A stretch of 64,000 nt of DNA from Glaciimonas immobilis (GTDB taxonomy: Bacteria > Pseudomonadota > Gammaproteobacteria > Burkholderiales > Burkholderiaceae_D). The notes beneath the pieces are model-generated. The model worked only from the letters and a program-made list of their open reading frames with translations. It did no database searches and was not told the DNA's origin. The stretch is from positions 124,001-188,000 of the forward strand of contig NZ_JAAOZT010000007.1 of NCBI RefSeq assembly GCF_011947285.1, in the 5' to 3' direction. Made by a program: the position numbers and the translations under genes. How positions within the stretch are numbered: position 1 is the first letter of the stretch; each line of letters starts with the position of its first letter. Shown here one piece after another: positions 56,940 to 64,000 of this stretch.

Positions 56940-57152
56940 TCAATCCGGGTTATTGAGCTTGAAATCGTCGTATGCCGCATCGGCTTTGATGATGCGTTCA
57001 GCGTTAATGATTAGCGTTTGCGACTCAAGAATCTCTTGCTTGCTTGGGTCGCTTAGCATTGCCTTCATTAACTTGACTAGCTCCGGAAACATCTGCACCT
57101 TCAACATCTCATTGATGTTCCGCGTGCGCTCTAATGTGTCCTTTTCAGTCAT
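56940..57152 (-). CDS. Phage hypothetical protein, 70 residues
   Basis: A helical acidic protein (MTEKDTLERTRNINEMLKVQ) whose ATG overlaps the stop of the Ala-rich gene (ATGA). Its first residues (MTEK) and general form echo the start of that neighbour (MTEKQMHDRMQNI), hinting at a distant duplication. Function unknown. Confidence 0.6.
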   Translation of the reverse strand: MTEKDTLERTRNINEMLKVQMFPELVKLMKAMLSDPSKQEILESQTLIINAERIIKADAAYDDFKLNNPD

Positions 57153-58063
57153 GCTGCCGCCATAAGCTCAAGGAGCTTTTCGGCCTGAATTTTGTAGGCT
57201 TTCTGTCTTGCATCAGCAGCAGCATCAGCAGCAGCAGCATAAGCAGCAGCAGCATCAGCAGCATCAGCAGCAGCAGCATCAGCAGCAGCATCAGCAGCAG
57301 CATCAGCAGCATCAGCAGCAGCAGCATCAGCAGCAGCATCAGCAGCAGCAGCAGCAGCAACAGCATAAGCAGCATAAGCAGCAGCATAAGCAGCACAAGC
57401 AGCACCAGCATAAGCAGCAGCATAAGCATAAGTAGCAGTATCAGCAGCAGCATCAGCAGCAGCATAAGCAGCATAAGCAGCATCAGCATAAGCACGCGCC
57501 AAGCTATGCGCTTCACGGAATTGCTCGACCGTGCCGCCGATCTGGTAGAGCTCAGCTATGCGCTCAATCACTACCTTAGACTGATCAGTTTTCGCATGAC
57601 GGATGACGCCACTATCAGGATCAACCAACAGCCATATTGCAAACTTAGACCAAACGGTCGATAGGTCGGAGCCCGGCTTGATCGCATTGAAGAATTTACC
57701 TGGCCATGCAGCGCGATCTCCCTTCGGCATTCCTTCGAACATACAATCTTCGAGTCGTGCCAGAACTTGCGGAATACCGAACAAGGGTTCGTAAGAGGCG
57801 TGATTATCTGTTTTATGGTTTGTTCTGTGCAAGTTGTTGTACGATCGAATTGAGCATCCAACACCACATCCAACCCAAACACCACTACCCTCCCTGCCAT
57901 ACGTGCCAGAGACGATCTGATCAGCCACTCGGTGCTTCTCAACCTCGATCAGCAGATTGTTTTTCAACTCTTGGCTGCCGTTGAATGCTTGCATCGCTAT
58001 CTCCTGTGTGTTTGCTTGTTCGATGATGTTCTGCATCCGGTCGTGCATCTGCTTTTCGGTCAT
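57149..58063 (-). CDS. Phage protein with long Ala/Asp/Tyr repeat tract
   Basis: Residues 1 to about 190 form a normal domain (SGVWVGCGVGCSIRSYNNLH near 65, CMFEGMPKGDRAAWPGKFFN near 107) that I have seen only in phage proteins of unknown role. Residues about 190-285 are a low-complexity tract of AYAAADAAADAAA-like steps, then a short helix (ARQKAYKIQAEKLLELMAAA). The tract is encoded by near-perfect GCAGCAGCATCAGCA-type repeats, so its length is likely to vary. ATGA overlaps on both sides show that it is a translated operon gene. Confidence 0.7.
   Translation of the reverse strand: MTEKQMHDRMQNIIEQANTQEIAMQAFNGSQELKNNLLIEVEKHRVADQIVSGTYGREGSGVWVGCGVGCSIRSYNNLHRTNHKTDNHASYEPLFGIPQVLARLEDCMFEGMPKGDRAAWPGKFFNAIKPGSDLSTVWSKFAIWLLVDPDSGVIRHAKTDQSKVVIERIAELYQIGGTVEQFREAHSLARAYADAAYAAYAAADAAADTATYAYAAAYAGAACAAYAAAYAAYAVAAAAAADAAADAAAADAADAAADAAADAAAADAADAAAAYAAAADAAADARQKAYKIQAEKLLELMAAA
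57208..57495. repeat. Low-complexity trinucleotide repeat tract inside the Ala-rich gene
   Basis: About 290 bp made of GCA, TCA and TAA-containing triplets (plus strand: AGCAGCATCAGCAGCAGCAT-like units). Only G, C, A steps with T at intervals occur. Frames on both strands stay open through it (Gln/His, Ser/Ile, Ala/Asp/Tyr or Leu/Met readings), so most long frames here are by-products. Confidence 0.9.
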
Positions 58064-58584
58064 GTCAGCGGCTTAATAGGCAATAATTCAGGGCAAAAGG
58101 CAGCGTGCATCGCCGTAAGCCACTGCTCGGACCATTCCAGCGCGAGTTTTGAGAATTGATTTGTCTCCGGCGTATCACCCTCGTTAATTCCCATGAAAAA
58201 ACGCTCGGCTGGCCTGTTGTAATTTCTGCTAATCGGCGCTCTCAGTGGAAGCGTCGGGTCTCTCGCGTCGTCAAGTGTTCCAACTAAGCAAGAGCAAATT
58301 CCAGTGTATGCAGAGCCATCAACACTGCCAGATTTAAGGGCTAAAATAAGCGAGGGAACCTCACTAGGCGCGCCGGACAAAACAGCCCATATGTCATCGC
58401 GGATTGGCGTCAGGTTGCTGCCACTCAGGTTGCTGCCACGCAGGTCGCTGTCACGCAGGTTGCTGCCACTCAGGTTAGCCTGCGCATTGATCGCCATTGC
58501 CAGCGTGATCTTCATCGTGTTTTCTTCGCACTCATGCGAGAACAAAACAGTGCCATTCCAGCGATGCTTAATTTCGATTTTCAT
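58060..58584 (-). CDS. Pentapeptide-repeat phage protein
   Basis: The ATG at 58584 follows AAAGGAGAG and gives 174 residues. A short run of pentapeptide repeats lies near residues 36-58 (ANLSGSNLRDSDLRGSNLSG). The C-terminal part (PAERFFMGINEGDTPETNQF and LALEWSEQWLTAMHAAFCPE) matches a family of lambdoid left-operon proteins. It is the first gene after the leftward promoter at 58757-58785 and so among the first expressed. Its role is unknown. Confidence 0.75.
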   Translation of the reverse strand: MKIEIKHRWNGTVLFSHECEENTMKITLAMAINAQANLSGSNLRDSDLRGSNLSGSNLTPIRDDIWAVLSGAPSEVPSLILALKSGSVDGSAYTGICSCLVGTLDDARDPTLPLRAPISRNYNRPAERFFMGINEGDTPETNQFSKLALEWSEQWLTAMHAAFCPELLPIKPLT

Positions 58585-59257
58585 TTTCTCTCCTTTGGCT
58601 ATCACTTCATTCCCCTTGATTTTGGTATCGGTATTCCTCGCGCCGCTCCTGCTTGTCCTCGGCGTCTTCTTCATCGGAGGGTAAGTAGCGGTCGTGCGAG
58701 TCTTGTTGTGAGTTATCGGGAATTCCCCGCTCCGTGTTTGCTTGTTCGATGTAGCTATATTACTAAACGGTAATTTAAAAGTCAATACCGTTTGGTAATA
58801 TATTCGAGTATAATTCTTCCATCGCACAAATAACTTGATGCGATACCGGAGACGCGGACCAAATCTCGCTGCGTCGTAAAGTCCAGATCAGATGGAGCCA
58901 GGTGGGAAAAACTTTTGCAGGAAGCGAGCTGACGTTATCAGCCGATCTACTCGTCGGGGACTCACCGGCAGGGGTAGATGGATAGGCGTACTGTGGGATA
59001 GGTCTGAGATACGCACAAGGGTGGCGAAGTTAGCGCCCTAGACCGAACGGCTGACGAATCACAAAACTGCGGAAGGAATGCGTTGTGAAAAGGTTCAGTC
59101 TTAGGATGGCTGAATTTTTCAGCTCCAGGAATACTCTTTAAAACCACTTCATAGGTCTTGACCTTGACCTTAAAGAACAGAACTACGGAGTTAATAATAA
59201 GGTAATTGAAGAAAGTTAATATTTCACATAATAAATATAATATCTACGAGGAAATAA
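58585..59257. other. Control region with leftward promoter and long untranslated part
   Basis: About 670 bp. It holds the operator-promoter unit at 58757-58801 and no convincing gene. The part from 58840 to 59250 is GC-mixed then AT-rich. The direct repeat CTTGACCTTGACC near 59158-59170 may be part of a promoter for the rightward gene at 59258. Confidence 0.45.
58757..58801 (-). promoter_or_regulatory. Leftward early promoter with two repressor operators (pL/oL-like)
   Basis: On the minus strand TTGACT (58785-58780), a 17-bp spacer and TAATAT (58762-58757) form a near-consensus sigma70 promoter. Two 16-bp operators of the form ATTACY-AAAC-GGTAWT lie at 58759-58774 and 58784-58799, centres 25 bp apart. 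They cover the -10/spacer and the -35. The same arrangement occurs at 61559-61601. Confidence 0.88.
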
Positions 59258-62525: not shown

Positions 62526-62693
62526 ATGAGCATCAACATCAACCCGTCATCACTGGCTAAATACCGTGAGAGTACGGCAAACGGTAAGCCGAATGTCTCG
62601 TTAGTTCCAAAGGTAGCGCCTTGTGGCCATCGGGCATTTGCGAAACATTTGATTCAGTACAGCATGTGCTTGAAATGTTGGGATAAGAGATGA
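62526..62693 (+). CDS. Small phage protein, 55 residues
   Basis: The ATG at 62526 directly follows the previous stop, and the frame ends with an ATGA overlap into ninB. The product (MSININPSSLAKYRESTANG) has a C-terminal APCGHRAFAKHLIQYSMCLK with Cys and His residues that could bind zinc. Not recognised. Confidence 0.55.
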   Translation: MSININPSSLAKYRESTANGKPNVSLVPKVAPCGHRAFAKHLIQYSMCLKCWDKR

Positions 62694-63085
62694 AGAAGCA
62701 TTTCGTAATTCGCCATGGCCAAAAAGGTAACCGCCTCTATATTTGCCAGCACATCATGGATGGCGCGGAAGGCGATGTCGTCAAGATCACACCGCCAACC
62801 CGCACGCTTGAGCAGAACAGCAAGCTCTGGCCCATGCTCGCCGACGTGTCGAAGCAAGTCAACTGGCACGGCAATAAGCTGACCGGCGATGAATGGAAAG
62901 ACGTTTTCACTGCAGCTATTGAAAAGCAGAAAGTAGTTCCCGGTATCGATGGCGGTTTCGTTGTATGTGGCGCGAAGACAAGTCAATACAGTAAGCCCAA
63001 GTTTGCTGAAATGATTGAATTAATTTATGCATTTGGCGCTCAGCAAAGCGTTGTCTGGTCAGATCCAGCGGAACGGGCGGCATGA
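62690..63085 (+). CDS. ninB: NinB recombination protein
   Basis: NinB (YbcN/Orf) is a single-strand DNA binder that helps phage recombination as an SSB-RecA mediator. The 131 residues show RTLEQNSKLWPMLADVSKQV near residue 37, NGLTGDEWKDVFT-like KLTGDEWKDVFTAAI near 63 and the TSQYSKPKFAEMIELIYAFG segment near 98, all family marks. Its stop overlaps the methyltransferase start (ATGA), and the alternative-frame start follows at once. Confidence 0.92.
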   Translation: MKKHFVIRHGQKGNRLYICQHIMDGAEGDVVKITPPTRTLEQNSKLWPMLADVSKQVNWHGNKLTGDEWKDVFTAAIEKQKVVPGIDGGFVVCGAKTSQYSKPKFAEMIELIYAFGAQQSVVWSDPAERAA

Positions 63086-63831
63086 ATGGCCTGGTCAATC
63101 AGCAACGCAATGGTGAAGGATTACGAGAGCTCGCGCTATTCGCTGGCGCCGGTGGCGGAATCCTCGGAGGCCATCTGCTTGGATGGCGAACCGTCTGCGC
63201 CGTCGAATACAACGCCTACGCCAGATCAGTATTACTGGCCCGACAAAACGACGGAACACTCTCGCCTTTCCCGGTTTGGGATGACGTGCGAACTTTTGAC
63301 GGAAAGCCATGGCGCGGCCGTGTTGACGTGGTTTCTGGGGGCTTTCCCTGCCAGGACATCAGCGCTGCTGGAAAAGGCGCTGGACTCGAAGGAGAGCGTA
63401 GCGGCCTCTGGTCAGAATTTGCAAGGATCATTCGCGAGGTACAGCCACGAAGAGTCTTTGTGGAAAACAGCCCAATGCTCACTTCTCGGGGACTTGGAAA
63501 AGTTCTCGGAGACTTGGCCGAGATGGGGTTCGATGCGAAATGGGGAGTGCTGGGCCCTGGAGGCTTCGGGGCAGTTCATCGGCGCGAAAGGATATGGATA
63601 CTTGCCGACGCCGAGTGGGACCAGCAATCACGGGAAGAATCATGTTTCAGGAAGATTGGACGAATGGGGTGGAAGCACGAATCCATGGCGACGTACGGAA
63701 ATTGGGAAAGTTCATTGCGCGAGCTTCGAGGAATGGATGATGTCGTGGCCCGTTCTGTGGACCGCACTGACGCCATTAGAAACGGGCAAGTTCCATTTGT
63801 GGCAGCAACAGCATGGAGAGTTTTAGCATGA
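63082..63831 (+). CDS. Phage C5 DNA cytosine methyltransferase
   Basis: The 249-residue enzyme shows the C5 motifs in order: LFAGAGGGILGGHLLG (motif I, near 18-33), VEYNAYARSVLL (II), GGFPCQDIS with catalytic Cys90 (IV), VFVENSPMLTSRG (VI, with ENS for ENV) and GAVHRRERIWILA (VIII). The C-terminal GQVPFVAATAWRVL is motif IX/X-like. The target-recognition part between motifs VIII and X is short (about 70 residues). It would methylate cytosine in phage DNA against host restriction. The gene overlaps ninB and ninG by ATGA, and a second frame overlaps nearly its whole length. Confidence 0.92.
   Translation: MNGLVNQQRNGEGLRELALFAGAGGGILGGHLLGWRTVCAVEYNAYARSVLLARQNDGTLSPFPVWDDVRTFDGKPWRGRVDVVSGGFPCQDISAAGKGAGLEGERSGLWSEFARIIREVQPRRVFVENSPMLTSRGLGKVLGDLAEMGFDAKWGVLGPGGFGAVHRRERIWILADAEWDQQSREESCFRKIGRMGWKHESMATYGNWESSLRELRGMDDVVARSVDRTDAIRNGQVPFVAATAWRVLA
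63086..63826 (+). CDS. Alternative-frame protein fully inside the methyltransferase gene
   Basis: The +1 frame is open for 246 codons from the ATG at 63086, which directly follows the ninB stop (TGAATG). The product looks natural and carries blocks I recall from separately annotated phage proteins: SLWKTAQCSLLGDLEKFSET, then WPRWGSMRNGECW near residues 125-150, GYGYLPTPSG near 167, and ASFEEWMMSWPVLWTALTPL near 215, ending LETGKFHLWQ. The methyltransferase frame over the same DNA has the expected catalytic motifs, so both frames seem used. No function is known for the family. Confidence 0.6.
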   Translation: MAWSISNAMVKDYESSRYSLAPVAESSEAICLDGEPSAPSNTTPTPDQYYWPDKTTEHSRLSRFGMTCELLTESHGAAVLTWFLGAFPARTSALLEKALDSKESVAASGQNLQGSFARYSHEESLWKTAQCSLLGDLEKFSETWPRWGSMRNGECWALEASGQFIGAKGYGYLPTPSGTSNHGKNHVSGRLDEWGGSTNPWRRTEIGKVHCASFEEWMMSWPVLWTALTPLETGKFHLWQQQHGEF

Positions 63832-64000
63832 TCAACTCCACTTTCAAGCGCAACGATTCGGGCGTATTGCGGACGGCGAAGCCAAAGCCAAGTAAGCCGA
63901 CACTGGCACTCAAGCCGAAGACGCGCAAGTGCAAAGTCTGCCGGACGCCGTTCATCATTTTTAACTCGATGACCAATGTCAAATGGTGTTCGCCAGAGTG
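63828..64000 (+). CDS. ninG: NinG-like (Rap) protein, partial at the window edge
   Basis: The frame starts with an ATG overlapping the methyltransferase stop (ATGA) and runs out of the window after 57 residues. The segment KPKTRKCKVCRTPFIIFNSM, then TNVKWCSPE, has the CxxC zinc knuckle and following Cys of NinG. NinG/Rap is a Holliday-junction endonuclease that limits branch resolution in lambda-like phages. Gene order ninB-methyltransferase-ninG supports the call. Confidence 0.85.
   Translation, partial: MINSTFKRNDSGVLRTAKPKPSKPTLALKPKTRKCKVCRTPFIIFNSMTNVKWCSPE

Follow-up and report, generated by a model that had tools for sequence, protein, structure and literature searches.

A probable two-chain phage C5 cytosine methyltransferase encoded in overlapping reading frames

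We analysed a 64,000-nucleotide stretch of Glaciimonas immobilis DNA (hereafter the window), near the end of which the same 750 bp appear to encode both chains of one enzyme. Comparison with related loci makes it highly likely that a phage C5 cytosine methyltransferase (MTase) is produced here as two chains from overlapping frames, one catalytic (alpha) and one for specificity (beta). Both frames are conserved and the constraint on them is segregated along the overlap. Features of the locus, all on the forward strand (+), are listed below; TRD denotes target recognition.

62690..63085 (+), ninB, directly upstream of alpha and beta (PF05772, E 9.7e-41)
63082..63831 (+), alpha, C5 MTase ORF of 249 aa, with Cys90 in GGFPCQDIS
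63082..63088 (+), ATGAATG start overlap: alpha ATG at 63082, ninB TGA at 63083-63085, beta ATG at 63086
63086..63826 (+), beta, +1-frame protein of 246 aa with a TRD-like cassette and a putative motif-IX counterpart (open frame, phrog_1008)
63086..63580 (+), beta residues 1-165, over the catalytic motifs, with weaker constraint of their own (SN/SS 0.21-0.32 at MTase residues 14-173, against 1.08 in flanking genes)
63599..63760 (+), TRD-like cassette of beta, LPTPSGTSNHGKNH...EWMMSWPVLW, beta residues 172-225 (from beta-frame identity across loci)
63601..63780 (+), alpha residues 174-233, a nearly unconstrained linker beneath the beta TRD/IX part (from codon-position rates, MTase ratio 0.67-1.94 and low pLDDT)
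63716..63763 (+), putative motif-IX counterpart in beta around SFEEWMMSWPVLWT, aligned with AAFPEWMMGWPAGWVT of Silvy gp53, a segment close upstream of motif X there
63828..64000 (+), first part of a NinG-like gene that runs past the end of the window (PF05766, E 0.0088, not reaching its cut-off)

Organization of the locus and openness of the second frame

The first-pass annotation had described an MTase frame at 63082-63831 with its catalytic Cys90, and a +1 frame of 246 codons at 63086-63826 that begins right after the ninB TGA and is near-coterminal with the MTase; sequence and translation confirm both descriptions. The alpha stop codon (TGA, 63829-63831) is overlapped by the ATG of the NinG-like gene; the last base of the beta stop codon (TAG, 63824-63826) is 5 nt upstream of the last base of the alpha stop. 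An identical (100%) copy of the locus is present in a predicted viral contig (L001).

The beta ATG lies 4 nt downstream of the alpha ATG, and the corresponding NTGAATG order, with the beta ATG 4 nt after an alpha start of ATG (47 loci), TTG (16) or GTG (15), was found in 78 of 132 loci. A Shine-Dalgarno-like 4-mer, sought with a permissive pattern set, is present upstream in 68 of these 78, at a median distance of 4 nt from the alpha start and 8 nt from the beta start. Layout and 4-mers together suggest that alpha and beta are each initiated independently.

Two other features of the window lie upstream of this locus. A tandem array of GCAGCAGCATCA at 57210-57494 (12-bp unit, 24 copies) leaves several frames uninterrupted, among them an Ala/Tyr/Asp-rich ORF of 304 aa on the minus strand at 57149-58063 that has no Pfam match. 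A pentapeptide-repeat ORF lies on the minus strand at 58060-58827 (PF00805, E 1.2e-6).

Conservation of the beta frame was assessed in 160 loci chosen by MTase similarity alone, comprising the best 80 of at least 600 viral loci and the best 80 of 459 bacterial loci confirmed among at least 592 matches to the MTase alignment. Judged by record titles, they include phage contigs and bacterial records from several phyla, many of them MAG contigs. They represent fewer than 160 independent events, because the codon-test set contains at least 9 pairs of 99-100% identity, and L008 and L059 are one contig. Expected stop numbers were obtained from synonymous-codon shuffles that keep each MTase protein and its codon usage. 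In the viral loci, 82 stops were observed in frame +1 against 482 expected, and 1278 in frame +2 against 1084; the bacterial loci gave 83 against 378 and 1114 against 916, respectively. The viral copy of the window locus has no +1 stop, with a shuffle mean of 4.5. Relative to the scored MTase stretch, the longest +1 ORF never falls below 86% in the 80 viral loci or below 88% in the 80 bacterial ones, and the control frame +2 reaches at most 66% (median 17-19%). Scored stretches shorter than 220 codons occur in seven of the 160 loci, six with internal alpha stops and one (L135) that begins inside the gene. In 67 of the 80 viral loci the beta stop is located within 20 nt of the alpha stop. The earlier proposal that so long a frame is overprinted and not accidental is thus borne out by the depletion of stops relative to shuffles and by a frame that stays open in 160 of 160 relatives.

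As a control, other C5 MTases from same-family genomes were scored in the same manner (15 of 30 loci, the remaining 15 having no motif-IV match). Fourteen of them show about 218 stops in frame +1 with 206 expected, and none is open; the fifteenth, a second split locus (L267), was left out of these sums. That locus is a second C5 MTase of the same genome (L267:1423-2316; G000:C12:330413-330895), detected by the beta profile (E 1.1e-8). Its +1 frame is open (0 stops, 3.5 expected) and carries a motif-IX-like IRWLIGSERLTIMGFAPDWM, while motif X is in the core frame.

Segregation of constraint between the two frames

In this overlap, codon position 2 of beta coincides with position 3 of the MTase, and position 3 of beta with position 1 of the MTase. 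Codon tests were performed on 734 pairs from 113 of 135 loci, after dropping L018, L032, L052, L055 and regions shorter than 200 codons; changes were classed by their effect in both frames, and 27 disjoint pairs served as a check. MTase residues 14-113 show the ordinary pattern, in which MTase codon position 3 changes fastest. Over residues 194-233 the rates are inverted, with MTase position 1, equivalent to beta position 3, changing most: differences at the three positions are 0.18/0.03/0.01 at residues 194-213 (six pairs of > 90% identity) and 0.39/0.20/0.21 at residues 214-233 (pairs of 65-70% identity).

When the MTase frame is accounted for, beta remains strongly conserved between motifs VIII and X. 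Its NN/NS ratio is 0.13 both at residues 174-213 (bootstrap 0.09-0.18) and at 214-233 (0.09-0.17), and 0.08 over residues 174-233 in the disjoint pairs. The SN/SS ratio at 174-213 is 0.79, from 9 SS changes only, too few to be informative. The MTase itself is near neutral there, with ratios of 1.94 at 174-213 and 0.67 at 214-233 and wide bounds. Over residues 14-113 both frames are constrained, the MTase at a ratio of 0.02 and beta at 0.21 and 0.36; at residues 234-249, which contain motif X, the MTase is tight (0.03) and beta unconstrained (0.90 and 1.61). In this last region the disjoint pairs give an NN/NS of 0.32 from just 5 and 5 changes, too small a number to weigh, compared with 1.61 in the full set. 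Flanking control genes, a small sample of 11 out of 39 candidate pairs, have beta-type ratios of 1.08 and 0.74 and tolerate synonymous changes that create stops. Across MTase residues 14-233, synonymous changes creating a beta stop number zero in the 27 disjoint pairs, where 18.5 are expected from the pooled rate and 16.0 by region; the constraint pattern of these residues repeats in the same pairs.

Part of the apparent conservation of the beta N-terminal half must be a shadow of the MTase motifs beneath it. The question whether the whole family arose as a shadow frame of MTases has a divided answer: such an origin is possible only for the part over motifs I-VIII, and in the TRD/IX part the shadow appears to be the MTase frame (0.67-1.94) and not beta (0.13). 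These tests establish dual coding to the extent that sequence comparison allows.

Distribution of enzyme modules over alpha and beta

Alpha matches PF00145 (E 1.2e-28) and phrog_363 (E 4.1e-62). Motifs I-VIII occupy approximately residues 15-177, with core motifs I, IV (PCQ), VI (ENV/ENS) and VIII present and C90, E128, N129, R168 and R170 invariant in the MTase alignment. Motif X (AIRNGQVP, residues 231-238) is in the same 63082 frame, and N234 and Q236 of its IRNGQVP are likewise invariant. The initial description of this frame as having all C5 motifs is thus too broad: I-VIII and X are there, the stretch between VIII and X is unconserved, and the counterpart of motif IX is in the other frame. 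In the usual single-chain form the TRD and motif IX belong to the same chain as the core, and alpha departs from it in this respect; accordingly, profiles of 51 window-type MTases align with single-ORF MTases over motifs I-VIII only (E 4.9e-37). The predicted structure of alpha resembles the large domain of M.HhaI, with low confidence where the small domain would sit (block mean pLDDT 38-59 across residues 181-230). Unlike M.HhaI and single-chain C5 MTases in general, alpha has no conserved small domain.

The best family match of beta is phrog_1008 (E 4.2e-17, residues 73-188), which also matches the C-terminal part of Mycobacterium phage Silvy gp53 (E 3.9e-71) and gp90 of mycobacteriophage Hammer (E 3.9e-73). 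Silvy gp53 is a single-ORF MTase of 550 residues; past motif VIII its frame continues through repeated LPTPxxxD cassettes to AAFPEWMMGWPAGWVT and on to motif X. Profile alignment with hhalign (64 beta proteins against 10 single-ORF MTases) pairs beta residues 172-229 with Silvy residues 424-512 (96.8%, E 2.6e-10). Assignment of the EWMMGWPxGW stretch to motif IX is our own, suggested by its place near motif X and by its likeness to LTxREAARxQxFPDxF of ordinary MTases. Homology between Silvy and beta, combined with the alignment of alpha over motifs I-VIII only, places target recognition and motif IX in beta and motifs I-VIII and X in alpha.

Beta is not an orphan protein, its C-terminal part being homologous to a TRD/IX region that single-ORF MTases carry in frame. 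The earlier suggestion of a phage protein in its own right stands insofar as beta is a conserved, real second gene; it fails in that beta is not unrelated to its host frame, the C-terminal part being the TRD/IX of the same kind of enzyme. Beta has no match in Pfam, its profile has none among PDB sequences at E <= 1, and its N-terminal half contains no recognised domain. The AF2 model of beta alone is poor (pLDDT 60, pTM 0.28), and a Foldseek search with this low-confidence model retrieved no PDB fold.

The same core and LPTP-cassette/EWMMGW region as in the window occur in both mycobacteriophages in other arrangements. In Hammer, the two parts are overlapping ORFs, gp91 and gp90, with the TRD, IX and X on the downstream, partly overlapping +1 ORF; in Silvy, a single ORF holds the TRD, IX and X in the core frame. 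Where mycobacteriophage MTases have motif IX in the core frame, as L137:1760-2275 and most of L141-L164 do, frame +1 still holds SETWPTSGM over the core, in many cases along with an LPTP cassette; a simple two-chain model does not account for its retention in the Silvy group. Among loci whose frames were inspected, none has beta without any MTase core. The nearest cases are the downstream ORF Hammer gp90, the in-frame Silvy region, and loci with an interrupted core.

Such interruptions, in which alpha has an internal stop and beta is open over nearly its whole length, were found in six of the 160 loci (L128, L188, L190, L204, L216, L240). By position, the stop falls in the linker part in L128, L204 and L240. 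A similar case is L018, where alpha is interrupted before motif I and beta is open. Such loci could reflect decay, sequencing errors or a role of beta that does not depend on alpha; they agree equally well with beta being kept in the absence of alpha and with a strict two-chain enzyme. Because of the six loci, our confidence in the split enzyme is lower, and that in an independent beta function higher, than it would otherwise be.

The TRD-like cassette at beta residues 172-225 recurs in 23 loci. In 20 of these the aligned core is 33-52% identical to that of the window (rough figures, the aligned stretch being at most 80 residues in 15). For the cassette nucleotides of the same 20 loci, identity is 64-81% when they are read in the beta frame and 32-51% in the MTase frame. 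The cassette is thus conserved in the beta frame across distant cores. The high cassette identity is partly selected, because these 20 loci came from a beta query; the gap between frames is not. The loci compared come mostly from the 54 found with that query, a biased sample that is not part of the 160 as such, and include three identical-looking pairs (L035/L036, L039/L040, L043/L054). In some relatives (e.g. L017, L119), beta has up to four LPTP-type cassettes. Recurring and stacked cassettes would fit modular target-recognition units. In Paracoccus aminophilus, two cloned prophage m5C MTases partially protect several different sites (PMC3925955); as possible relatives of the split type they are a lead only.

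A loose motif-IX pattern is found in frame +1 in 51 of the 80 bacterial loci (including three look-alikes, L213, L214 and L231) and in frame 0 in eight, all of which are motif-X or tail matches by position. A distant lineage with SCPCQPFS likewise has a +1 ORF with cassettes and WLMGLPxEW. Of its 22 loci, 17 were scored; in 14 of them the +1 ORF reaches 75% coverage or more, and in 12 motif IX is in +1, while L304 and L312 have it in the core frame. In this lineage L291 and L295 are the same locus, and L306 and L307 look alike.

In 12 annotated nested-type records (L138-L140, L316-L324) one frame is annotated in each, the core in eight and beta in four, and both in none (beta frames inspected in all but L324). 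One annotated beta frame is labelled as a DNA-cytosine methyltransferase. Half of the putative enzyme is thus overlooked in these records because only one of the two frames is annotated. Escherichia coli PCP07014 has a related MTase (L316:1495-2256) that its record labels a pseudogene and that contains an internal stop; the beta frame is interrupted there too.

Comparison with known two-chain enzymes, alternative explanations and implications

Two-polypeptide C5 MTases include M.EaeI. For EcoHK31I, Lee, Kam and Shaw reportedly described in 1995 a small chain whose gene lies within that of the large chain, in a different frame. M.AquI and M.EcoHK31I are naturally two-chain C5 MTases (PMC3404938), and the latter is termed naturally split (PMC3439449). 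The larger chain of M.EcoHK31I has motifs I-VIII and X together with the predicted TRD, and the smaller chain has motif IX (PMC3404938). The frames in the window share with it the two-chain form, with I-VIII and X in the larger frame and IX in the smaller, and differ in the TRD, which is conserved in the smaller-chain (beta) frame and near neutral in alpha. In the window, the beta start is also just 4 nt behind that of alpha and beta covers almost the whole alpha frame, and some relatives have multi-cassette beta proteins. The locus may resemble M.EcoHK31I in the way it works. We do not class it as a member, because TRD placement differs and the comparison is by description, not by sequence. 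With M.AquI it shares the placement of catalytic motifs and motif IX on different polypeptides (PMC3404938); the smaller M.AquI subunit comprises part of the variable region and IX-X, whereas the window keeps X in alpha and the two genes overlap almost completely. What differs from M.EcoHK31I is thus the TRD in the beta frame, the near-complete overlap from the start codons, and the recurrence in many phage and bacterial loci. In the openly accessible PMC literature, no description of such an arrangement in phages was found.

In the mechanism we propose, translation would begin at ATG 63082 for alpha and at ATG 63086 for beta. Alpha would form the large domain, with motifs I-VIII, a loose linker and motif X, and beta the small domain, with one or more target-recognition cassettes and motif IX, its N-terminal half being encoded across the alpha catalytic region. 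The two would associate, beta conferring DNA specificity on the large domain. Phages may swap or stack TRD cassettes in beta and so change the methylation target, and the altered methylation would probably shield phage DNA from restriction. We infer translation of beta, the heterodimer, its methylation activity and the counter-restriction role from the arrangement described above.

Three other explanations were weighed. Beta could be an overprinted phage protein whose function has nothing to do with methylation and lies, for example, in anti-restriction or regulation. An N-terminal half under its own constraint yet with no known domain would agree with this, as would the loci in which beta is open despite an interrupted alpha. 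We nevertheless regard it as unlikely, since the C-terminal part is homologous to the TRD/IX of single-ORF MTases, phrog_1008 is common to beta, Silvy gp53 and Hammer gp90, and exactly this part is missing from alpha. Still less probable is a single polypeptide made by programmed frameshifting, in which ribosomes leave the MTase frame near motif VIII, read TRD/IX in +1 and return for motif X. The position of TRD/IX in +1 precisely between VIII and X would suit it, and Hammer gp91/gp90 looks like a single-shift arrangement. The window, however, would require two opposite shifts, and beta is stop-free throughout, even in the 165 codons that precede the TRD, and in the NTGAATG loci its own ATG immediately follows a stop.

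An accidental long ORF, produced by base composition or by MTase amino-acid constraint, gains something from beta motifs such as SETWPRWGSMRNG that lie over conserved MTase residues, where likeness is partly shadow. It can be given practically no weight, as stops fall far short of the shuffled number, the 14 other C5 MTases behave as shuffled, and the substitution pattern inverts where beta alone is constrained. A chance ORF was rejected on stop depletion in both the viral and bacterial sets, on the control MTases and on the 27 disjoint pairs.

Beyond the window, we lean towards regarding a frame-overlapped split of domains as a major architecture of phage C5 MTases, with exchangeable cassettes and motif IX in beta, and each frame ancestral in one part and an overprint in the other. 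If this is true, shuffling of beta cassettes would adjust specificity with little dependence on the catalytic core. The proteins encoded by overlapping genes are usually unrelated; in this locus the two frames seem to contribute to a single active site. Predictions of specificity or activity that draw on just the annotated half would fail, and a locus recoded in one frame for cloning would lose the partner encoded in the other. The many loci would also offer ample natural material for quantifying constraint on overlapping frames.
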